Origin: Fictibacillus nanhaiensis
GTDB taxonomy: Bacteria; Bacillota; Bacilli; Bacillales; Fictibacillaceae
Reading direction: 5' to 3'
Length of the DNA stretch: 64,000 bases
Assembly: GCA_016401345.1 (NCBI GenBank)
Contig: JAEACG010000001.1
Location: 806,001 to 870,000 of the forward strand
This document shows, piece by piece, positions 53,646 through 64,000 of this stretch (position 1 is the first letter of the stretch; every line of letters starts with the position of its first letter). The notes below the pieces were generated by a model. It ran no database searches and was not told where the DNA came from. It was given only the letters and a program-made list of their open reading frames with translations. Both the position numbers and the translations under genes were made by a program.

Positions 53646-54041
53646 TTATACCTTACTCAAATAATGAATGATGTCCATTCTACGTATGATACCGATAAAT
53701 ACTTCGTTGTCATCCACAACTGGTACGAAGTTTTGAACTGCAACAAGCGACATTAAGTCTTCCATCTCAGCATCTATATGAACAGGCTGATAGTCCCTGT
53801 TTACCATTATGTCCTTAATATAATGATGCTCACTATTTTGAAAAGAAAGACCTTCTGTGTTTTTAATTTTCCATAAAAGGTCACCCTCTGTGATCGTTTT
53901 TATATAATGTCCCTTTTCATCAATTACAGGTACAGCGGTGTATCTGTGATACTCCATCTTTTCCATAGCCTGGCGAATGGTTGATTCTGCATGTAAACAG
54001 ATCACTTCTTTCTTTGGAAGAAGAAAGAATGCAATATTCAT
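53646..54041 (-). CDS. Twin-CBS-domain protein at the end of the kdp unit
   Basis: This 131-aa protein consists of two CBS domains (STIRQAMEKMEYHRYTAVPVIDEKG and DAEMEDLMSLVAVQNFVPVVDDNEVFIGIIRRMDII) joined by a short linker. Such free-standing CBS proteins bind nucleotides; in Firmicutes some (DarB/CbpB) bind c-di-AMP. Its position as last gene after a c-di-AMP-riboswitch-controlled kdp cluster makes that ligand attractive, but the sequence is not clearly the DarB type. It lies 42 bp after the KdpD-like gene. GAGGGG precedes the ATG at a rather long distance. Confidence 0.78.
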   Translation of the reverse strand: MNIAFFLLPKKEVICLHAESTIRQAMEKMEYHRYTAVPVIDEKGHYIKTITEGDLLWKIKNTEGLSFQNSEHHYIKDIMVNRDYQPVHIDAEMEDLMSLVAVQNFVPVVDDNEVFIGIIRRMDIIHYLSKV

Positions 54042-54083: not shown

Positions 54084-55238
54084 TTATGACTGTTCTTCAG
54101 AAACGATGTGTATGTCTATGTTTTTTGAATTTCTCATTATACTGTTAACAATAGAACCCTTTGTAATCTCTTCCCATCTCGTTCTTGCCGATTGGCCTAA
54201 AATAATCTGAGTGATATGATGTTCTTTTGCGACATCTGTAATAACTTGTGGTATTTTTCTTTGTCTGGATCTTTCTAGAATAAATTTAGCGTTAAATTCT
54301 ACAGCAAGTTTTTTCCAGCCTCTGATTCTTTTTCGCTGTTCTTGAGAAATGTTCCCTCTGTGATCGATCAACACATTTAAAACATATAATTCTGCATTTA
54401 AACGATTGGCTATTCGCCAGCCTCTTCGGATCAGCTTTTCTGCACTTGGACCATATTGTACACAGACTAAAATTTTTTCTGCCACACCTGTTGGACCACT
54501 ATCGGTAAAGACGATATCGGATTTTAAGAGCTTTTCATCTACATCATCTGCAATTTCACGGAGAGATAATTCACGCAGTGCACCTAAATTGTTCTTAGTA
54601 AAAAAGTTGTTCAATGCCTGGTCTATTTTTTCCTGCGCATAAATTTTACCTTCTATTAAACGTTGCCTCAGCATTTCTGGTGTCACGTCGATTAAGATTA
54701 CTTCATGTGCAATATCCAGAATCCTGTCAGGTATTCGTTCGCGAACTGCTACACCTGTAATATGCTGAACAATATCATGAACACTTTCAATATGTTGGAT
54801 GTTTACTGCTGATACAACATTAATTCCGGCATCAAGTATTTCTTCCACATCCATGTATCGCTTTTTGTTTTTTGAACCTGGAACATTGGTATGGGCCAAT
54901 TCATCAATTATGACCACATCTGGTCGGCGTTCAATGATCTTTTCTATATTTAACTCTTCTAGTTTTTTATCTTTGTATTCAATGATTTTTTTAGGTATGA
55001 TTTCAAGATCTTTAATTCTTTCTGCTGTTTCTTTTCTACCATGGGTTTCAATTAAGCCGATTACGATATCGACTCCTTGTTTTTTTAAATCATGAGCTTC
55101 TAAAAGGATTCTATACGATTTACCTACACCTGGTGCTGCTCCAACGAATAGCTTTAACTTTCCCTTTTCATCTTGATAGATTTCCTGCAGAAACTCTTCA
55201 GGCGTTTTCCTTTTAAGTTGAGGGTATTTGTCATACAT
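54084..55238 (-). CDS. kdpD: Truncated KdpD (sensor and Usp domains, no kinase)
   Basis: This 384-aa protein has the KdpD N-terminal domain with Walker A GAAPGVGKS (33-41), GLIETHGRKETAE, IIDELAHTNVPGS (Walker B-like) and VSAVNIQHIESVHDIV. A UspA-like domain follows (ILVCVQYGPSAEKLIRRGWRIA, then IILGQSARTRWEEITKGSIVNSIM). The membrane, HAMP and histidine-kinase parts of full KdpD are absent, and there is no kdpE. Short KdpD forms of this kind occur in other bacilli, and the Usp part can bind c-di-AMP in some species. RBS: GAGGTG. It follows kdpC by about 90 bp. Confidence 0.88.
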   Translation of the reverse strand: MYDKYPQLKRKTPEEFLQEIYQDEKGKLKLFVGAAPGVGKSYRILLEAHDLKKQGVDIVIGLIETHGRKETAERIKDLEIIPKKIIEYKDKKLEELNIEKIIERRPDVVIIDELAHTNVPGSKNKKRYMDVEEILDAGINVVSAVNIQHIESVHDIVQHITGVAVRERIPDRILDIAHEVILIDVTPEMLRQRLIEGKIYAQEKIDQALNNFFTKNNLGALRELSLREIADDVDEKLLKSDIVFTDSGPTGVAEKILVCVQYGPSAEKLIRRGWRIANRLNAELYVLNVLIDHRGNISQEQRKRIRGWKKLAVEFNAKFILERSRQRKIPQVITDVAKEHHITQIILGQSARTRWEEITKGSIVNSIMRNSKNIDIHIVSEEQS

Positions 55239-55327
55239 TTACGCACCTCGTTATCATCATCATCGACTACAAACCAAGAAGCAAGAACCTTTACCCTAGG
55301 TGTTTAGAGTAAAGGCTTTGTCTTCTA

Positions 55328-55942
55328 CTATTGTAACAATTTCTCTAAAGCAATATTAAGTGTCAGTACATTCACGCGAGGTTCACCAAACAGACCAAGC
55401 TCTCTTCCTTGAGTATTTTCTTTAATCAATTTTTTAAGTTTTTCTTCATTTATTCCTGTTGCTTCTGCAATTCTTGGAACCTGTACATCTGCAGCCTCAG
55501 GAGTAATATGCGGATCAAGTCCGGATCCGGAGTTTGTGATTAAATCAATCGGAAGCTCGTTAACAGGTACAGCTGGGTTAGCCTTTTCCCATGCAGCTAT
55601 GCTTTCTTTCATTCGTTTCATCATATCTTCATTTGAAGGTGCATAGTTTGGACTTCCAGAACCAGCCGCGTCGTACTCGATACTGGAAACACGCCCGCTG
55701 AAGTATTCGGGTTTCGTAAACGTTTGACCAATAAGTTCAGAACCTATTACTTCTTTATCTTCATTATAGATTAAGCTTCCATCCGCTTGATTCGGCATAA
55801 CGACTTGTGCAATTCCTGTGACAACAACAGGATATACAAGACCGCATATCACCATTAAAGCAAGGGAAAGGCGAAGCATCTTAACGATATTGTTAAAGAT
55901 AAATACTTTTTCATTATGTTGATTTAATGAATGTGATTGCAT
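55328..55942 (-). CDS. kdpC: KdpC, K+-transporting ATPase subunit C
   Basis: This 204-aa protein has one membrane segment ([24 protein letters not shown]) and the KdpC pattern [45 protein letters not shown] and [24 protein letters not shown]. It stabilises the KdpFABC complex. The ATG at 55942 has AAAGGA ten bases upstream; an earlier in-frame TTG is too close to that site. It follows kdpB by 28 bp. Confidence 0.95.
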
Positions 55943-55970
55943 ATCGATCAATTCCTTTCTTTTCTAACGG

Positions 55971-58085
55971 TTACACGAACAAGTGAACAATCAGATCAAT
56001 CAATTTTATTCCGATAAAAGGTACGATTACACCACCGAAACCATAGATTAAGAGGTTACGTTTCAATAATGCATTTGAACTCATCGGTTTGTAAGCTACT
56101 CCTCTCATAGCCAGAGGAATGAGCAATGGAATAATAATCGCATTAAATATTAACGCAGATAGTATGGCCGACATCGGTGAGCCAAGCTTCATGACTTTGA
56201 GTACTTCCATCTCAGGAATCGCCAGCATGAACATCGCTGGGATGATGGCAAAATACTTCGCAATATCATTCGCGATACTGAATGTTGTTAACGCACCACG
56301 AGTCATTAGCAATTGTTTCCCAATGGAAACCACTTCAATAATTTTCGTCGGATCGGAATCCAAGTCTACCATGTTGGCAGCTTCTTTCGCTGCAGTCGTT
56401 CCACTGTTCATGGCAAGCCCTACATCCGCTTGTGCAAGTGCTGGTGCATCATTCGTTCCATCACCAGTCATCGCAACCAATTTCCCTTCTGCTTGTTCAC
56501 GCTTAATTACAGCGATTTTATCTTCCGGTTTACTTTCAGCAATAAAGTCATCCACGCCGGCTTCTCTTGCTATTGTTTTAGCCGTTAACGGGTTATCACC
56601 TGTACACATGATCGTTTTGATTCCCATTTTTCGTAACTGTTCAAAACGTTCTTTCATTCCAGGCTTTACGGTATCTTTTAAATAAATCAGTCCGTATATA
56701 TGCTGATCCACAGCTACTGCCAGCGGCGTTCCACCTTCAGATGCAATTCGGTTTCCTTTTTCTTCAAGGTCATGTGGCACTTCTCCACCAGTTGCAAGTA
56801 CCCAGTTTTTAATTGCGTCTACCGCTCCTTTTCGTACTTTTTTTCCATCTTTTAAGTCGATTCCGCTCATTCGCGTTTCGGCTTTAAACTCAATAAATTC
56901 TCCATCTTCACCAAGAGATTGATCAAACGATAAGTGTTCTTTTTTCATGAGTTCCAAAACGGATTTACCTTCTGGTGTATCGTCTTTTAATGAACTGATG
57001 GCAGCCCATTCCCCAACTGATTTTTTCGTATCGAATCCTACTGGTACAAATTCGCTTGCCATACGGTTACCGAATGTAATCGTCCCCGTTTTATCTAGGA
57101 TGATCGTATTGATGTCACCTGCAGCTTCAACCGCTTTACCAGACATAGCGATTACATTAAATCTCGTAACACGGTCCATTCCAGCAATACCGATCGCGGA
57201 TAAAAGTCCACCGATTGTTGTCGGAATCAAACAAACGAGTAATGCGATTAAGACCGGTACTGGTATGTCAAAACCTAGATACTTTGTAAAGAATGGAAGT
57301 GTTACAACTACAATCATAAAAACAAGTGTCAAACTCGTTAAAACAGTACTTAACGCAATTTCATTCGGTGTTTTTTGACGCTTCGCTCCTTCTACGAGGG
57401 AGATCATGCGATCAAGGAATGATTCTCCTGGATCTGCTGTAATTCGTACTTTAATTTCATCACTTACTACACGTGTTCCTCCTGTTACGGAGTTAAAGTC
57501 ACCGCCAGCTTCTTTAATTACAGGAGCTGATTCTCCTGTAATCGCCGACTCATCAACAGAGGCAAGACCAGATATGACTTCACCGTCTCCTGGAATCATT
57601 TCACCTTGTTTTACAATAACGATGTTTCCTTTACGAAGATCAGCTGATGAAACTGTTTTGTGTTTACCGTTTTCCAGCACAAGGTTTGCATAAACTTCTT
57701 TTTTCGTTTTCTTTAATGAATCAGCCTGAGCTTTCCCTCTTCCTTCAGCTATTGCTTCAGCGAAATTTGCAAACAGGAGGGTTACAAACAGAATGAAGGT
57801 TACAGCAATATTGAAACCAACTTGAGTTTGATCTCCAAAAAAGGTTAATAATAATGTAATTACAAAACCAATTTCAACAACAAACATGATCGGATTTTTA
57901 ATCATTACCCTTGGATCTAGTTTAATAAAAGATTCCTTTATCGCCTGATTCACGATTTCTTTATTCATCATTGTTTTATTCATTTGTACTTCCTCACGAT
58001 TCTTTTTCATAGGTCCGTTCCCACCTTTTTGGGGAGGAACGTACTGAGATAATTCTTTTTTGGTCCTTAAGCCTTGAGCACCCAT
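55971..58085 (-). CDS. kdpB: KdpB, P-type ATPase subunit
   Basis: This 704-aa P-type ATPase has the TGES motif ([17 protein letters not shown]), the phosphorylated Asp in [13 protein letters not shown], the hinge [18 protein letters not shown] and the KdpB-specific N-terminal [21 protein letters not shown]. It supplies energy for K+ uptake. About 34 residues precede the core, which is normal for Bacillus KdpB; both the ATG at 58085 (AGAGGTG) and one near 57983 (GAGGAAG) have ribosome sites. Confidence 0.95.
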
Positions 58086-58109
58086 TATTTTTTCACCTCT
58101 CTACAGCAT

Positions 58110-59777
58110 CTATAATGTTAAATATTCGGCAATCGGGCCTAATACCAATACTGGGAAGAATGTTAAAGCCCCAACAATAAATACAGCCCCAATAAACACA
58201 CCTGCAAATAGCCCGTTATCTGTTCTGAACGTTCCGATCGTTTCTGGAACGGTTCGTTTTACAGCCAATGATCCTGCAACCGCAAGCATCGTTACAATGG
58301 AAAAGAATCTTCCAAGATACATAACGATTCCGGTAGAAATATTCCAGAAGTTTGTCGCATCTCCTAATCCTTCAAAACCAGAGCCGTTATTTGCTGCTGA
58401 AGAGGTATATTCATAGATTACTTGTGAAATACCATGAAAACCTGAGTTCGAAATGGCCTCATGTCCGAGTGGTGTAAAGAAAGCTACAGCAGATGCTCCT
58501 AAAATAAGGAACGGGTGGATTAACAACGTCGCTGCAATCAGCTTCATTTCTTTCCCTTCAATCTTTTTACCTAGAAATTCCGGGGTACGCCCCACCATTA
58601 ATCCAGATAAGAAAACACCAATAATCGCATACATTAAGACGTTGACAAAGCCTGCCCCTACACCGCCATAAACGGTATTTAACATCATATTGGATAATGT
58701 AACTAATCCGCCAAGCGGAGTCAGTGTATCGTGCATCGTATTAACAGCCCCCGTTTCTGAAGCCGTTGTAACAACCGAGTAAAGTGAAGACTGAGCGACA
58801 CCAAATCGTACTTCCTTTCCTTCCATGCTTCCTTGATCATGTTGCACACCTAGAGCATTGATTGCTTGGTTTCCCTGATATTCCGCACTCAGGGAGATGC
58901 CAAGGAACATAATAAACATCATCGTCATGGAAACGAAAAGAATACGTCCCTGCTTTGGATTTCCAACCATCTTTCCGTACGTAAACGGTAATGCCATCGG
59001 TAATAGTAGCATCAATAAGATTTGAATAAAGTTGCTCGGTCCGTTCGGATTTTCAAACGGATGCGCTGAGTTAACTCCGAAAAACCCACCGCCGTTATTT
59101 CCTAATTCTTTTATGGATAGGAACGAACCAACTGGTCCAACTGCTATGTTTTGTTTTCCACCTTCAACTGTAGTGACTGTAACCGTTGGATCTAATGTCT
59201 GCGGTACTCCAAGTGCAACGAAAATGAGTCCTGTTACAAAAGCGATCGGTAGTAACACACGAATGATACCCCTAACCATATCCACAAAAAAGTTTCCTAA
59301 AGACTTGCCAGATAGCCCACGAATGAATGCGATTGCTACTGCTAATGCTGTAGCTGGTGCAACAAACATCATGAAAAGAATGCCAATCATTTGTGAAAGA
59401 TAGGATAAACCACTTTCACCACTGTAATGCTGCAGATTCGTATTCGTCATAAAACTTACTGCTGTGTTAAACGCAAGACTTGGATCCATGTTTGCTATCT
59501 TACTCGGATTCAGAGGCAAACTGCCTTGAAAACGGAAGATTAAGTAAACTAATAGAATCATAATCGCATTGATCACGATTACTGATGAAGCATAAACTTT
59601 CCAAGATTGATTTTTATTTTTCATTCCACTAATGGAATAAATCAGATTTTCGAAAGGATAAAAGAGTTTGTTCTTATTCGAATAATTGAACGAGTTCGCT
59701 AAATAAATTCCTACTGGTTTTGCAAGTAAAAGAGCTATAAGTAGAGTTATAGCTATAGAGAGTAAACTGACTATCAA
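58110..59777 (-). CDS. kdpA: KdpA, K+-translocating subunit
   Basis: This 555-aa membrane protein has about ten segments and four selectivity-filter loops, including NTNLQHYSGESGLS, NNGGGFFGVNSAHPFENPNG, ETGAVNTMHDTLTPLGG and SSAANNGSGFEGL. It belongs to the superfamily of K+ transporters and carries K+ through the KdpFABC complex. The start is a TTG with GGAGG eight bases upstream. kdpF ends 12 bp before it. Confidence 0.95.
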   Translation of the reverse strand: MIVSLLSIAITLLIALLLAKPVGIYLANSFNYSNKNKLFYPFENLIYSISGMKNKNQSWKVYASSVIVINAIMILLVYLIFRFQGSLPLNPSKIANMDPSLAFNTAVSFMTNTNLQHYSGESGLSYLSQMIGILFMMFVAPATALAVAIAFIRGLSGKSLGNFFVDMVRGIIRVLLPIAFVTGLIFVALGVPQTLDPTVTVTTVEGGKQNIAVGPVGSFLSIKELGNNGGGFFGVNSAHPFENPNGPSNFIQILLMLLLPMALPFTYGKMVGNPKQGRILFVSMTMMFIMFLGISLSAEYQGNQAINALGVQHDQGSMEGKEVRFGVAQSSLYSVVTTASETGAVNTMHDTLTPLGGLVTLSNMMLNTVYGGVGAGFVNVLMYAIIGVFLSGLMVGRTPEFLGKKIEGKEMKLIAATLLIHPFLILGASAVAFFTPLGHEAISNSGFHGISQVIYEYTSSAANNGSGFEGLGDATNFWNISTGIVMYLGRFFSIVTMLAVAGSLAVKRTVPETIGTFRTDNGLFAGVFIGAVFIVGALTFFPVLVLGPIAEYLTL

Positions 59778-59789
59778 CGGAAAAACCTC

Positions 59790-59870
59790 CTAAAATTTCT
59801 CTGGATTCAATAATACGTAAAGAAGATACACCGTTGTTAAAACGGCTACTCCAAACATGACAGTCATCAT
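59790..59870 (-). CDS. kdpF: KdpF, small stabilising subunit
   Basis: This 26-aa single-span peptide begins MMTVMFGVAVLTTVYLLYVL and ends NPEKF, the form of KdpF. In the known complex KdpF stabilises KdpABC in the membrane. Its ATG overlaps the stop of the 35-aa ORF upstream (ATGA), and its stop lies 12 bp before kdpA. AAGGAAG precedes it. It is too short for most gene finders. Confidence 0.85.
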   Translation of the reverse strand: MMTVMFGVAVLTTVYLLYVLLNPEKF

Positions 59871-59974
59871 TTATTTACACTTCCTTCATCAACAACACTT
59901 GATGACCATTTTGCTAGACCCATCATTAAGACTGGCATTCCTACCATCAATAAAACCATCATCACATCTAACAT
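59867..59974 (-). CDS. 35-aa membrane ORF coupled to kdpF
   Basis: The ORF begins MLDVMMVLLMVGMPVLMMGL, one Met-rich membrane segment, and ends with a short polar tail (VVDEGSVNK). AAGGTG lies five bases before the ATG, and its stop overlaps the kdpF start by four bases. Its size, membrane span and coupling suggest a second small subunit or assembly peptide of the Kdp complex, which is an inference. I do not recognise it as a named family. Confidence 0.7.
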   Translation of the reverse strand: MLDVMMVLLMVGMPVLMMGLAKWSSSVVDEGSVNK

Positions 59975-59997
59975 TTTTACACCTTCTTTTTATTAGT

Positions 59998-60273
59998 TCA
60001 TTGTTCTAAGTAACCATTCAGCATTAGAGATAAATTTTTGATAGCCTCTTGAGCATCACAACCTTCTATTCTAAGTGTGATCGGTTCGTTTTGATTTCTT
60101 GAATAGTGTGACAAAAAGAATAGATTAACGGATAGTAAGCCTTTCGCATTAATCTGTATGCCTTGATAAAAGAATAGAATCTCACTTTCGAAAGAACCAG
60201 CAGCATTGACAAATTCATTGATCTGTCCGATCGACAACCTTTTTGGCAATAAAACAACTGACTCTGTCCCCAT
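59998..60273 (-). CDS. HPr-like protein lacking the phosphorylation residues
   Basis: This 91-aa protein follows the HPr fold along its length (VLLPKRLSIGQINEFVNAAG, EILFFYQGIQINAKGLLSVNLFFL, ITLRIEGCDAQEAIKNLSLML). Aligned by eye with HPr, the active His15 is Ser, the following Arg17 is Gly and the regulatory Ser46 is Gly, so it cannot accept phosphate in the usual way. CAGGGTG precedes the ATG. It sits in the kdp transcript 24 bp before the 35-aa ORF. A role as a regulator linked to PTS or to Kdp is possible, but nothing is proven. Confidence 0.72.
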   Translation of the reverse strand: MGTESVVLLPKRLSIGQINEFVNAAGSFESEILFFYQGIQINAKGLLSVNLFFLSHYSRNQNEPITLRIEGCDAQEAIKNLSLMLNGYLEQ

Positions 60274-60308
60274 GTTTTCACCCTGCCTATCACTGGTATG
60301 GATTTACA

Positions 60309-60340
60309 GAGGGAACATCTTATCTTTGATGGGTTCCCTC
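60309..60340 (-). other. Intercistronic hairpin in the kdp transcript
   Basis: GAGGGAAC (60309-60316) pairs with GTTCCCTC (60333-60340). No T-run follows on the minus strand, so it is more likely an RNA-processing or stabilising stem than a terminator. Confidence 0.5.
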
Positions 60341-60350
60341 CTGTAATGGT

Positions 60351-60488
60351 TTAACCTTTACTTCTAAGCGTGTCTTGTATGATCCATTTTGAGAGACTAT
60401 GTTGAATCACACTTGCATAATAAGCATTCAATTGATCTCTTTTTGCTTTTAACAAAATCTGTTCAATTTCGTTTGGACTTAATCTCAT
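60351..60488 (-). CDS. 45-aa ORF in the kdp leader cluster
   Basis: The ORF begins MRLSPNEIEQILLKAKRDQL and continues as one amphipathic helix-rich, basic peptide ending RSKG, with no membrane segment. GGAGG lies nine bases before the ATG. It is 24 bp after the Rossmann-like gene and within the same transcript downstream of the c-di-AMP riboswitches. I do not recognise a family. The clear ribosome site supports coding. Confidence 0.62.
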   Translation of the reverse strand: MRLSPNEIEQILLKAKRDQLNAYYASVIQHSLSKWIIQDTLRSKG

Positions 60489-60512
60489 AAATGAATTCCT
60501 CCGCTCTTTTTT

Positions 60513-60926
60513 TTATGAAGAAAGTAAGAATTGAATATTTCCGGTTTTGTTATAGATTACGTAATCGGCACCTAACTCCTTATAAACTCTGGAAATATAC
60601 CGTGTGTCTGATTTGATAACATAAACAGGTATGTTATAAATGCTGCGAATGAGTTCAATCGTTTGGCAGCATTCTAAAAATCCAGATTCAACAACAATGA
60701 TTTTTTGAACAAAAGGACCTACCATCTCGATAACTTTACGCTTGTCACCATAATTCATAACATATACATGTTGAAACCCAACTTGTGAGAGTCTATCTGC
60801 TTCTTCTCGGTTAGGAACACAGAGAACAAGAGATTGATAGTCTTCACACAATCTTAGTTTTGAAATAAATACATCTGAAACTAGATCAGGAAACATAATG
60901 AGCACGTTCCCAGATGATTTCTCCAT
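60513..60926 (-). CDS. Rossmann-like protein, possibly a degenerate RCK domain
   Basis: This protein of about 137 aa alternates strands and helices (GNVLIMFPDLVSDVFIS, SLVLCVPNREEADRLSQVGF, KIIVVESGFLECCQTIELI, VYVIKSDTRYISRVYKELGADYVIY). The last part recalls the end of RCK/TrkA-N domains, which bind NAD or nucleotides and gate K+ transport. The glycine-rich GxGxxG loop is missing. It is the first gene after the tandem c-di-AMP riboswitch. The ATG at 60926 has GGAGGG seven bases upstream. The family link is a cautious inference. Confidence 0.68.
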   Translation of the reverse strand: MEKSSGNVLIMFPDLVSDVFISKLRLCEDYQSLVLCVPNREEADRLSQVGFQHVYVMNYGDKRKVIEMVGPFVQKIIVVESGFLECCQTIELIRSIYNIPVYVIKSDTRYISRVYKELGADYVIYNKTGNIQFLLSS

Positions 60927-61070
60927 CGTTCCACCCTCCATCTCGTAAAGAAATAGGCTGAATTCTAGCCTCTCATGTCAGCCTTAATTGCGCTTATACT
61001 ATCGTCTTAAACTTGTTGCTACGTCGAAAACCATCGTGCCGACAAGTTATACTTTTAGATAGTGAAAAAA

Positions 61071-61163
61071 AGGCAACAAAAAAGAAGCCTGCGGAAGAGG
61101 AACTCTTCTCGCGGCTTCTACGCATACTTGAATAAGCGTGTGAATACACGAAATTTGTTGCCT
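61071..61163 (-). terminator. Riboswitch expression platform with terminator
   Basis: On the minus strand a terminator hairpin (61118-61084, GAAGCC...GGCTTC with inner GAAGAG/CTCTTC) is followed by TTTTTT. A perfect 10-bp inverted repeat (TTTGTTGCCT at 61154-61163, AGGCAACAAA at 61071-61080) encloses it and uses part of the T-run. TAAGCGT at 61133-61139 can also pair with the aptamer's 3' P1 strand (61173-61179). These alternatives fit ligand-controlled termination. Confidence 0.75.
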
Positions 61164-61171
61164 CTCTCTGT

Positions 61172-61300
61172 ACGCTTACGGAGTTAGCTGACGGATTCGG
61201 GCTTGAGAGTAGCCCTACTCGATCTCTCGAGATTCACCCCATGCAGACGCAATGGCCTGCGATTGGTTCCCCCGCTCCCTAAATTAGGAATTAAGCGATA
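61172..61300 (-). ncRNA. c-di-AMP riboswitch (ydaO/yuaA class), proximal aptamer
   Basis: On the minus strand the conserved blocks appear in order: P1 strand ATCGCTTA, AGCGGGGGAACC, GGGGTGAATC, CCCGAATCCGTCAGCTAAC and the closing GTAAGCG. These are the hallmarks of the ydaO/yuaA aptamer. Ligand-bound forms promote termination in known examples. The platform terminator lies directly downstream, before the Rossmann-like gene and the kdp genes. Confidence 0.93.
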
Positions 61301-61375
61301 AAGACGCATGATATAATAATCATAATTTGTAAAATTGTTATTATTACTCTTTTTTAATGTTCACCTTCCCTCTCC

Positions 61376-61498
61376 TACCACGCTTACGAAGTTAGCTGAC
61401 GGGTTCGGACGGCAGAAGTCGCCCGACTTTATAAGTTTCACCCCAGGCAATGGAAACTGCCGATGGTTCCTCCGTTCCAAATTTGGATTCAGCGGTCA
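61376..61498 (-). ncRNA. c-di-AMP riboswitch (ydaO/yuaA class), distal aptamer
   Basis: A second complete copy lies 75 bp upstream in the transcript: ACGGAGGAACC, GGGGTGAAAC, CCGAACCCGTCAGCTAAC and GTAAGCG in the same order, with different variable stems (GGCAGTTTCC...). No T-run hairpin follows it, so it seems to lack its own terminator. Both aptamers are downstream of one promoter. Confidence 0.9.
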
Positions 61499-61530
61499 TG
61501 GAAAAAATTTAAAGTTTTACGATAAGCAAT

Positions 61531-61559
61531 ATATTACTCCTGGTTTCAGCCGTTGTAAA
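61531..61559 (-). promoter_or_regulatory. Promoter of the riboswitch-kdp transcript
   Basis: On the minus strand TTTACA (61559-61554), a 17-bp spacer and TAATAT (61536-61531), placing the start near 61524, about 25 bases before the first aptamer. Confidence 0.68.
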
Positions 61560-61753
61560 TCCATTAAAAACTCTGAAATATTCATATTTCGTATAAAAAC
61601 GAATTAAATAAACTTATTTAAGAAACAAAAAACAAACAAATCATCTTTTTTCTTTTACTTTCTCAATTTTTCGATACATTTCAAACAAAATAATAGTTGT
61701 AATATTCTAAAAAAACCAAGTACTGAACTTAAATTTTTTTTTAAAAAATAAAA

Positions 61754-61783
61754 AAGCTAAGCAAATTTTACTTTGCTTAGCTT
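61754..61783 (-). terminator. Terminator of the small membrane-protein gene
   Basis: AAGCTAAGCAAA (61754-61765) pairs with TTTGCTTAGCTT (61772-61783) just after the stop at 61786. T-rich sequence follows on the minus strand. Confidence 0.88.
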
Positions 61784-61785
61784 GG

Positions 61786-62034
61786 TTAAAACGATCTAAA
61801 ATCCAATCTCTGTCTTTTAGTCCAGAGCCATACGCCTGTGAACAGATGAATCGCAAACACTACAAAGACAGCTCCATAACTTTCTGTAATCCAGCTCACA
61901 AACCAAATGATCGGTAGAGCTAAAAAAAAGTTAACAAGCAACAACACCCATGAAGTTCTCGCTATAGCTACAAAGAATAAAATAATTGGTAAGATTAAAA
62001 AAATCCAGAATAGTACGTTTTGAAAAGTTGCCAT
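61786..62034 (-). CDS. Small three-span membrane protein
   Basis: This 82-aa protein has three closely spaced hydrophobic segments (NVLFWIFLILPIILFFVAIA, LLLVNFFLALPIIWFVSWI, AVFVVFAIHLFTGVWLW) and a basic end. I do not recognise a named family. The ATG at 62034 has GGAGGGG six bases upstream. It follows the MFS gene by about 50 bp and may be cotranscribed. Confidence 0.68.
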   Translation of the reverse strand: MATFQNVLFWIFLILPIILFFVAIARTSWVLLLVNFFLALPIIWFVSWITESYGAVFVVFAIHLFTGVWLWTKRQRLDFRSF

Positions 62035-62085
62035 GACTTCCCCTCCGCTTTTCATTATAAAAGGGCTTCGCCATAATCTCCAGCT

Positions 62086-63369
62086 TTAAACTGGTACTTT
62101 TTCTAATTCCAAATCATTTTTGTTATCATTTTCTTCAATATCATACCTGGGTAGAGTGAACATGTAGAATAGTCCAACAAGAATCAGACATCCTCCCACA
62201 ACCCAGAACAGCATTTCTACGGTTAGAATTTTCGGGAAAAACACAGCGATTAAACCGAGTGTCATGGTGTGAGATAGCATGTTGATCGGTGTAATCCATC
62301 CTTGAACACGTCCCATCATTTTAGGATCTACGATCTTAGGTAACCAGCCACCGATTCCAATATTGATTAATGGAATGCTAAACCCAGCCAATCCTGTAAA
62401 AATAAAGAATGTCAACACATTTGGCGCGATGGCGCATAAACCAAGTGACAATCCACTTACGAATAGTCCAAGAACAATCGCATACGAGAGTCTGATCTTT
62501 TTAGCGAGCATCGAACAAATAACACTCCCTGTAAGGATAGATACACCAAACACCACACCCATCCACATCATCATTTGTTCGTAATTATCTGGAGCGAGTT
62601 TATATTTCATGATAAAAGCCGGCATAACTGACAATCCACCATTTACTATACCAAACAAGAAAAAACCAAAGATTAATGAAAGTAGAAGCTTAGATTGTTT
62701 AATGTAATTGAACCCCGCAACAAAATCCTTCCATACCATCTTTACACGAATATCTTTGAACCTGTGTTGTCCGTTCGGCAGACGAACATCTTCATCAACT
62801 CTCATACTCATAATTAATAATGCTGATATAACATATGTAATAAGGTCAAATGCAATTGCTCCTTGTATTCCTATACTCCAATAAATAAAAATGGCGATCA
62901 TGTTCCCAAAAAGCATAAATAAACTACCTACCATTTGATTCAATCCAGCTGCAATTGCATACTCCTCTTTCGAGAGTACACCTTGTACCATCGCTTGATC
63001 AGCAGGAAAAAAGAATTTACCTACTGCACTTCTTAAGAATAAGATAGCAAAAATCAAAGGCATCCAGTCTAGCCATATAGCACCCATTAATAAGAGGCAC
63101 AGCCCTGCACAAATCCAATCACAATAAAGCGCGATTTTTTGACGATCCATTCGATCGGCTAATACCCCTACGATAAAGAAAACAGCTAGTGTTGGCAGAG
63201 AATACATCAATTCTGCAAGTGTGGCATAAAACGGCTGTTCACCGAACTTATCCAACAAATAAAACATAAAAGCTGTAACGCCGATAATACTTCCCATCAT
63301 TGAAGTAAAACCAGCAAAAAACAGCTTGCTGAAGTTTTTATTCTGAAACACTTTCAGAAACTCCTTCAC
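62086..63369 (-). CDS. MFS transporter (MDR-type exporter)
   Basis: This 427-aa protein has twelve membrane segments and the MFS loop motif GVLADRMDRQKIALYCD near residue 63 (G-x-x-x-D-R-x-x-R). It also has the second-half equivalent MLAKKIRLSYAIVLG near 290. The pattern fits enterobactin/macrolide-exporter-like MFS proteins of the EntS/MefA type; the substrate is unknown. The start is a GTG with GGGGG seven bases upstream. A 26-bp perfect palindrome lies 70 bp upstream, in the region shared with the divergent NrnB-type gene. Confidence 0.85.
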   Translation of the reverse strand: MKEFLKVFQNKNFSKLFFAGFTSMMGSIIGVTAFMFYLLDKFGEQPFYATLAELMYSLPTLAVFFIVGVLADRMDRQKIALYCDWICAGLCLLLMGAIWLDWMPLIFAILFLRSAVGKFFFPADQAMVQGVLSKEEYAIAAGLNQMVGSLFMLFGNMIAIFIYWSIGIQGAIAFDLITYVISALLIMSMRVDEDVRLPNGQHRFKDIRVKMVWKDFVAGFNYIKQSKLLLSLIFGFFLFGIVNGGLSVMPAFIMKYKLAPDNYEQMMMWMGVVFGVSILTGSVICSMLAKKIRLSYAIVLGLFVSGLSLGLCAIAPNVLTFFIFTGLAGFSIPLINIGIGGWLPKIVDPKMMGRVQGWITPINMLSHTMTLGLIAVFFPKILTVEMLFWVVGGCLILVGLFYMFTLPRYDIEENDNKNDLELEKVPV

Positions 63370-63438
63370 ATCATAACCCCCAACTTTAAATAATTTTCAT
63401 CATTACCATTTTCTACCTAATGAAATCAATTGTAAATA

Positions 63439-63464
63439 AATTCTTGTGAAATTTCACAAGAATT
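63439..63464. promoter_or_regulatory. 26-bp perfect palindrome between divergent genes
   Basis: The arms (63439-63451 and 63452-63464) are exact reverse complements with no loop; each contains TTCTTGTGAAA read towards the centre. The core resembles Rex or CRP-family half-sites (TTGTGAA...TTCACAA), but the spacing is two bases, not the four of a Rex site. It lies 70 bp from the MFS start and 136 bp from the NrnB-type start. Confidence 0.6.
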
Positions 63465-63599
63465 ATTTAGCATATTCATCCGGTTTCGGTGTTAAAATCA
63501 GCTGAATTTGTAAATGAAAAGAATACTACGATATAAAGGTTGAACTTTATGCTTTATGACGATACTCTAGACAGAGAGCATAATAGAGAGGATACTAAC

Positions 63600-64000
63600 A
63601 TGATTCATTTATTTTCACACAACGATTTAGACGGAAAATCGTGCGGTTATTTAGCACAACTAGCATTTGGAGACAACTGTAAAATATCGTATTGTTCACA
63701 TGGAACGATTAATGACCGTGTAGAGATGCTGCTTGATAATCCGAGAGAAAGAAAAACAGAAATTATCATTACAGATATTGCGGTTAACGAAGAATTAATG
63801 ATGCGACTTGATGAACGATCTAATGCAGGTGGAAAAGTAAAGCTGATCGACCACCATGCAACAGCGCTTCATTTCAATGGGTTTGATTGGGGGCATGTTC
63901 AAGTTCGTTATGATGATGAACGTTTAACATGTGCTACTTCCCTTTTCTATGAATATTTGATCGAGAACGGTAAGCTTAAACCAACAGGTGCGCTCGATGA
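63600..64000 (+). CDS. nrnB: NrnB-type DHH phosphodiesterase, 5' part
   Basis: The reading frame stays open from the ATG at 63600 to the window end (133 codons). It carries DHH-family metal motifs: SHNDLDGKSCGYLA near residue 6, IIITDIAVNEE near 57 and IDHHAT near 82. B. subtilis NrnB (YngD) has the same start and degrades short RNAs (nano-RNase) and pAp-like substrates; the same superfamily includes cyclic-dinucleotide hydrolases. GAGAGGA precedes the ATG. The C-terminal DHHA1 part is outside the window. Confidence 0.82.
   Translation, partial: MIHLFSHNDLDGKSCGYLAQLAFGDNCKISYCSHGTINDRVEMLLDNPRERKTEIIITDIAVNEELMMRLDERSNAGGKVKLIDHHATALHFNGFDWGHVQVRYDDERLTCATSLFYEYLIENGKLKPTGALD

Follow-up and report, generated by a model that had tools for sequence, protein, structure and literature searches.

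Tandem c-di-AMP riboswitches have been described before. Sherlock et al. 2022 (PMC9481103) report 77 doublets of this class, most of them with a terminator in between and some without a strong one, and remarked that in the terminator-less doublets four ligands might bind cooperatively and that these merit study. In Table 1 of that paper, as we understand it, c-di-AMP doublets are placed under multiple expression platforms, and dual aptamers with one platform are represented by the glycine and guanidine-II riboswitches, NAD+-I being treated elsewhere. The terminator-less doublets are mentioned there without their genes, and 'kdp' has no occurrence in the main text. A mixed Na+/c-di-AMP tandem, cited in the same paper, was studied in PMC9337991. 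Among the titles and beginnings of abstracts listed in searches of open-access literature, no experimental study of a c-di-AMP/c-di-AMP doublet was found.

Single c-di-AMP aptamers in front of kdp are established in bacilli, as the original prediction for this locus had stated. In Bacillus thuringiensis BMB171 one such riboswitch on kdpFABC works as an OFF switch, c-di-AMP promoting termination, and the kdp riboswitch was reported together with a truncated KdpD in 12 species (Wang et al. 2019, PMC6488665).

The DNA analysed here, referred to as the window, is a stretch of 64,000 nucleotides from Fictibacillus nanhaiensis. It contains a kdp operon on the minus strand, whose leader has the following features, given in the order of transcription.

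61531..61559, minus strand: promoter-like site TTTACA-17-TAATAT, upstream of both aptamers, 9 of 12 matches
61365..61504, minus strand: distal (transcribed first) c-di-AMP aptamer, RF00379, 95.5 bits, E 3.8e-22, model positions 1-134 of 134
61411..61418, minus strand: loop strand CUUCUGCC of the distal pseudoknot, forming an 8-pair helix with 61372-61379
61372..61379, minus strand: tail strand GGUAGGAG of the distal pseudoknot, the other side of the 8-pair helix with 61411-61418
61308..61364, minus strand: AT-rich linker of 57 bases between the aptamers, without terminator and without conserved promoter, mean identity in the genus 0.756
61157..61307, minus strand: proximal c-di-AMP aptamer, RF00379, 99.7 bits, E 2.6e-23, model positions 1-134 of 134
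61157..61168, minus strand: 3′ tail GAGAGAGGCAAC of the proximal aptamer, pseudoknot strand if folded and antiterminator strand if free
61095..61103, minus strand: GUUCCUCUU, the antiterminator partner, within the terminator loop and 3′ arm
61078..61118, minus strand: single intrinsic terminator, stem 61084-61118 followed by a T run, -22.1 kcal/mol

Rfam cmscan of window positions 55000-64000, with E up to 1, returned exactly two matches, both to RF00379 and both on the minus strand. Each covers the full model and exceeds the gathering score of 38 bits, which places both aptamers in the family. Two complete ydaO/yuaA aptamers had been predicted here, with coordinates that correspond to the cores of our matches, and the unlike variable stems that had been pointed out were seen on comparing the two copies. 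The whole genome has four RF00379 matches, and the two outside this leader sit elsewhere. A pseudoknot is a feature of the c-di-AMP (ydaO/yuaA) aptamer (PMC5393176), and in our reading of the sequence printed there it would join a loop and the 3′ tail. Both window aptamers have such a pseudoknot, the distal one by covariation (see below) and the proximal one by CUCUC/GAGAG pairing. The two aptamers are expected to sense the same ligand, and both copies would bind it.

The genes that follow the leader are, again in the order of transcription:

60513..60941, minus strand: open reading frame of 142 aa, first gene of the operon, no Pfam or NCBIfam family, predicted RCK/TrkA-N-like fold with pLDDT 81.7
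59998..60273, minus strand: HPr-like protein of 91 aa, PTS-HPr E 2.9e-6, above the Pfam cut-off and below the NCBIfam cut-offs
59867..59974, minus strand: hydrophobic open reading frame of 35 aa
59790..59870, minus strand: KdpF-like open reading frame of 26 aa, named from its position
58110..59777, minus strand: kdpA, KdpA E 4.5e-228
55971..58085, minus strand: kdpB, with E1-E2 ATPase and HAD domains and its place between kdpA and kdpC
55328..55951, minus strand: kdpC, KdpC E 3.7e-74
54084..55238, minus strand: KdpD-like protein without kinase domain, with KdpD sensor and Usp domains, NF038185 with 599.7 bits at a cut-off of 550
53646..54041, minus strand: protein with two CBS domains, closest to CbpB and below the CbpB cut-off

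Pfam and NCBIfam thus confirmed the predicted kdp operon for KdpA, KdpB, KdpC and the KdpD-like protein, whose family NF038185 is named 'KdpD-like non-kinase potassium sensor'. The true start of kdpB possibly lies further inside its open reading frame. The first genes after the leader are the 142-aa open reading frame and the HPr-like gene, not kdpF or kdpA, and the 26-aa frame is called KdpF-like partly for its size, which is like that of KdpF. An RF00379 leader, kdp genes and a truncated (non-kinase) KdpD occur together here, the combination expected of a c-di-AMP-controlled kdp operon.

Regarding the start of transcription, the promoter-like site of the window alone is near chance in AT-rich DNA, since 0.205 of shuffles score equally well. 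All 13 terminator-less kdp doublets tested, the window included, have a comparable site at a comparable distance before the distal aptamer. The spacer is 17, the -35-like hexamer is TTTACA in 12 of these sites and TTGACA in one, and the second hexamer is TAATAT, TAAGAT, TAGAAT or TAACAT. The recurrence agrees with the single shared promoter of the original prediction. A separate promoter between the aptamers was considered and rejected: within the linker, the highest-scoring promoter-like sequence (ATAACA-17-TATTAT, 61341-61313) is at chance level, with 0.195 of shuffles scoring equally well, and relatives lack it. The congeners G002 and G015, whose linker is the same, have a 10/12 promoter-like site there (0.055 and 0.065), at a position that differs from that in the window.

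The expression platform lies behind the proximal aptamer. The proximal 3′ tail GAGAGGCAAC has two alternative partners, its own loop in the pseudoknot or GUUCCUCUU of the terminator, and in the window only 5 % of shuffled tails paired with the terminator equally well (over 11 leaders, 0.02-0.21). In growing-chain folds of the platform alone the antiterminator is present at 80-88 bases out and the terminator from 92, the energies being computed without ligands, pseudoknots and magnesium. This terminator/antiterminator anatomy fits an OFF switch like the kdp riboswitch of B. thuringiensis, with which the window shares the truncated KdpD, a long 5′ UTR holding promoter, aptamer and intrinsic terminator, and the expected OFF direction; that leader has one aptamer (+28 to +171), whereas the window has two (PMC6488665).

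We scanned the linker and the downstream stretches of all 29 doublets at hand (described below) for a hairpin followed by a T run, with -7 kcal/mol or better as a pass. At gaps of up to 75 bases, a linker hairpin was found in none of 17 doublets and a downstream terminator in all 17, the window included, and at gaps above 75 bases a linker hairpin passed in 11 of 12, L075 being the exception; the 75-base limit was drawn with the data already in view, chance hairpins find more space in a longer linker, and the scan had no shuffle control. Two of the passing hairpins are borderline (L061, -7.8; L069, -7.0), and the shape of the L150 and L151 hairpins is doubtful. As a positive control, the same scan found terminators behind 28 of 28 single riboswitches. 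A linker terminator was therefore rejected for the window, where no hairpin precedes a T run in the linker, and for the other short-linker doublets. The split between short and long linkers places the window in a distinct, terminator-less kind. It shares with seven kdp doublets of Paenibacillus, Cohnella and Niallia (L060, L069, L074, L080, L081, L086 and L088) the two RF00379-type aptamers before kdp; unlike the window, those seven have a hairpin and then T's between the aptamers. Two Paenibacillus doublets do not fit, L075 with a gap of 113 and no hairpin found, and L085 with a gap of 52, none found and a weak distal copy.

The comparison set came from several searches. Among 100 genomes, the window's own included, 11 have two adjacent same-strand RF00379 matches with gaps of 47-71 bases, and all 11 pairs lie before kdpA. 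The survey of related kdp leaders that the original prediction had proposed thus did find doubled aptamers: of the 34 genomes in the family sample, kdpA is present in 8, the very 8 that carry a doublet. From an order search over 397 genomes four further pairs were fetched among the matches listed (G132, G299, G347 and G288), and pattern searches added the doublets G112 and G217. The pattern-search counts, at least 11 of 397 and at least 3 of 398 genomes, are lower bounds: G018, a known doublet, was missed, and the spacing that the pattern required may have hidden others. Altogether 17 doublets were found without reference to kdp, 15 of which precede kdp genes; the independent cases are few and many are close kin, 6 of the 17 coming from the window's genus. 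Near the doublets G347 and G288, kdpA or kdpB had no match in the fetched stretch. A kdpA search of named genomes, in which the best match to the window had 77 % identity, followed by an aptamer model search of the best 80 loci gave 12 more doublets, which are biased to kdp and were excluded from the 15 of 17. Ten of them lie before kdp in Halalkalibacter, Niallia, Paenibacillus and Cohnella, and two (L056 and L067) point away from kdp.

These figures bear on the one part of the original prediction that did not hold. Its aptamers, promoter-like site, kdp operon and single terminator, visible only behind the gene-proximal aptamer, were all recovered, but its view of a tandem pair as unusual disagrees with the 15 of 17 doublets that precede kdp and with the 77 already published. 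The window is like those published doublets in having two RF00379-type aptamers in one leader, and like some of them in having no strong terminator in between, whereas most of the 77 have an intervening terminator (PMC9481103). The absence of that terminator is the less usual aspect of the window.

The distal aptamer is as conserved as the proximal one. When six genomes of the genus are compared in pairs, the mean identity is 0.959 in the distal copy, 0.944 in the proximal copy and 0.952 in the platform. The distal pseudoknot was evaluated on an alignment of 15 chosen distal-type aptamers (14 distinct rows), 12 from doublets and three related single copies. The distal copies of L043 and L056 were not among them, nor was that of L038, which in the tree is identical to L037. 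In this alignment 89.3 % of cells are paired, a value reached by 2 of 500 shuffles, and slid controls are 34-62 % paired. Changes on both sides occur in 5 of the 8 pairs (1 of 500 shuffles). One of the five measures, further pair types, was not above shuffles (149 of 500), and pair 26-58 is formed in just 7 of the 14 distinct rows.

In a tree of 119 aptamers, the distal copy of the window falls in a supported set (96/93) of 13 rows, ten of which are the distal members of terminator-less doublets; the proximal copy falls elsewhere. Because the two copies do not group together, a recent duplication was rejected. Fifteen rows carry the label 'distal copy of a terminator-less doublet', which changes 6 times on the tree, at least 3 times on well supported branches; these counts are rough, as the columns are few for the number of rows and the bootstrap was still unsettled, and some changes are possibly losses. 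The tree indicates more than one origin of the distal-copy design. The distal copies of the terminator-less doublets G073, G112 and G217 belong to a different lineage from the window's distal set, and the ones from the G043-like locus L043 and from L056 lie outside it as well. The design is therefore not marked by any one type of distal sequence. Judged by its sequence, the distal copy of the window is neither a recent copy nor visibly decayed.

We consider it reasonably probable, somewhat better than an even chance, that the leader is a c-di-AMP OFF switch for kdp with two aptamers and a single expression platform, in which the distal aptamer acts through the proximal one. No platform was found for the distal aptamer, yet it is conserved, and the simplest account would be an action via the proximal aptamer, as in cooperative tandem aptamers. 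Plentiful potassium would raise c-di-AMP and both aptamers would be bound. The bound proximal aptamer would lock its GAGAGG tail in its own pseudoknot, the terminator would form and transcription of kdp would stop. When c-di-AMP falls, the proximal tail would be freed and would pair with the terminator loop and 3′ arm, and transcription would run into kdp. Occupancy of the distal aptamer would make folding or ligand binding of the proximal one easier or harder; with as many as four c-di-AMP molecules setting one terminator, the response would become steeper or shifted. The OFF direction is suggested by analogy with B. thuringiensis, whose single kdp riboswitch has been tested, and it is above all the coupling of the two aptamers that we infer here. 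The pair is probably cooperative. In its bolder form, a four-ligand cooperative c-di-AMP switch, a possibility already in print (PMC9481103), this reading is tentative and we would put it a little short of even. As both aptamers are expected to sense one ligand, the 'logic' of the original prediction would amount to a threshold or cooperativity effect.

The glycine riboswitch, with tandem aptamers on one platform (PMC9481103), is a described parallel; in cooperative tandems of the glycine type, a ligand bound to one aptamer favours binding by the other. Its aptamer differs, and a single c-di-AMP aptamer already binds two ligands. For the window leader no inter-aptamer contact is known, and its OFF control is proposed by analogy. 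Our tail-pairing and pseudoknot comparisons found no specific inter-aptamer pairing, and no docking motif was seen by eye. In the window, 0.575 of shuffled tails pair with the linker as well as the distal tail does, 0.97 with the whole proximal aptamer, and 0.47 with its first 60 bases (0.115-0.53 over 11 leaders). The swapped pseudoknot of the distal loop with the proximal tail (-7.7) is weaker than the self pairings (-12.9 and -11.7), and that of the proximal loop with the distal tail (-11.6) is comparable to the proximal self pairing, partly via a neighbouring stem. We also considered the distal tail as a second antiterminator strand. Its pairing with the terminator is energetically possible (-16.8 kcal/mol in the window), yet shuffled tails equal it (0.305 in the window; 0.11-0.76 over 11 leaders, the nearest case being Alkalihalobacillus bogoriensis with 0.11), and the candidate was rejected.

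The end of the distal aptamer raises a different explanation. Its purine-rich, Shine-Dalgarno-like tail is followed by a possible GTG mini-ORF of 6 codons (GTG AAC ATT AAA AAA GAG TAA, 61344-61364, minus strand). The distal aptamer could bind c-di-AMP with a non-terminator output of its own, on the ribosome site of the mini-ORF, on pausing or on RNA decay, and leave the proximal riboswitch independent. Within the genus the tail AGGAGAGGGAAGGUG is conserved, and other genera have a similar one. The AGGAG of the tail overlaps the pseudoknot strand, so that ligand binding would hide AGGAG. However, a similar purine-rich tail with GUG is found in single riboswitches that end in terminators and is maybe a leftover of an old platform, and the length of the mini-ORF varies across genera, its stop codon in the window lying 36 bases upstream of the proximal aptamer. 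We regard an output of this type as unlikely, though it is the best placed of the alternatives.

Regarding the ligand, the 13 rows of the distal set share a purine at column 184 together with C at column 238 (13 of 13 against 0 of 106 other rows), as G with C in 5 rows and A with C in 8, and most of them have further changes at columns 81, 256 and 286. Columns 184 and 238 correspond to window positions 61436 and 61425. Of the 48 columns with 95 % conservation or more, 3 differ in the distal copy of the window and none in the proximal copy. These differences could mean that the distal aptamer has changed its ligand, so that one terminator would answer both to c-di-AMP and to a second signal. 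On the other hand, 45 of the 48 columns are intact, the Rfam score is high (95.5 bits), and the 184/238 change may be merely a swapped contact. A second signal is improbable in our view, and just as doubtful is the specific proposal that the purine/C change gave the distal aptamer another ligand or a very different range of c-di-AMP response, with two inputs to one kdp terminator. Four-ligand cooperative binding of c-di-AMP is more likely than a changed ligand.

The design may stem from the loss of a first terminator, since the distal tail resembles the first platform half of many single riboswitches and several Paenibacillus kdp doublets keep a terminator at the corresponding place. Both observations would also suit a distal aptamer that is a relic, a former full riboswitch which lost its terminator and no longer matters, and the weak distal copy of L085 (41.9 bits) indicates that such copies can decay. 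Against a relic stand the identity within the genus, 0.959 compared with 0.756 for the linker, the covarying pseudoknot, the doublet in all 8 kdp operons of the family sample and the more than one origin, and we find this reading very improbable. Two riboswitches in series, each with its own terminator and the first missed by our scan, would be the common, pseudo-cooperative form of c-di-AMP doublets (PMC9481103), but the sequence contradicts this highly implausible reading, as 0 of 17 short linkers pass a scan that succeeds for all 28 single riboswitches and the AT-rich window linker has no hairpin before a T run.

The terminator-less c-di-AMP doublets left for further study in PMC9481103 here gain a concrete and conserved test case, whose target, the high-affinity potassium pump, is known. 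The kdp leaders also offer a natural contrast between one aptamer, two aptamers with two terminators, and two aptamers with one terminator. A cooperative pair would amount to an RNA switch with four sites for a major second messenger.

Several observations were made on the operon and on related loci. The predicted model of the 142-aa protein matched, in Foldseek, RCK/TrkA-N domains of K+ channels and transporters (KefB, KtrA, MthK), with a best E of 4.3e-5 and a TM of about 0.6, and distant relatives of this frame sit between leader and kdpA in other kdp operons. On the strength of the model, the protein is a possible unrecognised RCK-like regulator of Kdp. The HPr-like protein has a weak PTS-HPr match, and by eye it seems to lack the histidine of the HPr active-site motif. 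Across 55328-60941 of the window compared with L035-L039, kdpA, kdpB and kdpC are 94-97 % identical to those of G015 and 55-71 % to those of four other congeners, and for the 142-aa frame and the HPr-like gene the likeness is 84-100 % with all five congeners compared. This split in identity makes it likely that a recombination point separates the HPr-like gene from kdpA.

In the congener G007, whose genome has no kdpA match, we noticed two weak, degenerate-looking RF00379 copies (L053 1947-2097 and L054 2148-2289, both plus strand; 50.2 and 45.9 bits). Two loci, L043 6364-7604 (taken as Alkalihalobacillus bogoriensis) and L061 4121-5397 (Halalkalibacter alkalisediminis), have a third RF00379-type aptamer downstream, before kdpA, which in L043 sits behind an HPr-like gene, and both also have a divergent RF00379-type aptamer upstream.

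A divergent and very uniform RF00379 variant lies before kdpA, at about 4.0-5.4 kb on the plus strand, in 15 of the best 80 kdpA loci (L055, L056, L057, L058, L059, L062, L063, L064, L066, L067, L068, L077, L079, L082 and L096), in Cytobacillus, Rossellomorea, Jeotgalibacillus and others. It scores 53.9-70.5 bits in our own model, and 9 of 9 copies tested exceed the Rfam threshold (69.9-83.6 bits). It has GGGGUUAAU or GGGGUUUAU in place of GGGGUGAAU and a 3′ end of GUCGGCUAAAGCG-AGGAGGUC, and a changed affinity or ligand is possible.

The two doublets that point away from kdp are terminator-less and precede a glutamine synthetase gene beside kdp (L056 3678-4003 and L067 3733-4052, both minus strand). 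A single aptamer that groups with the distal clade, L077 3071-3205 (minus strand), likewise lies before a glutamine synthetase gene beside kdp and directed away from it. The glutamine synthetase protein of L067 passes GlnA, TIGR00653, and a putative c-di-AMP control of a glutamine synthetase seems worth checking.
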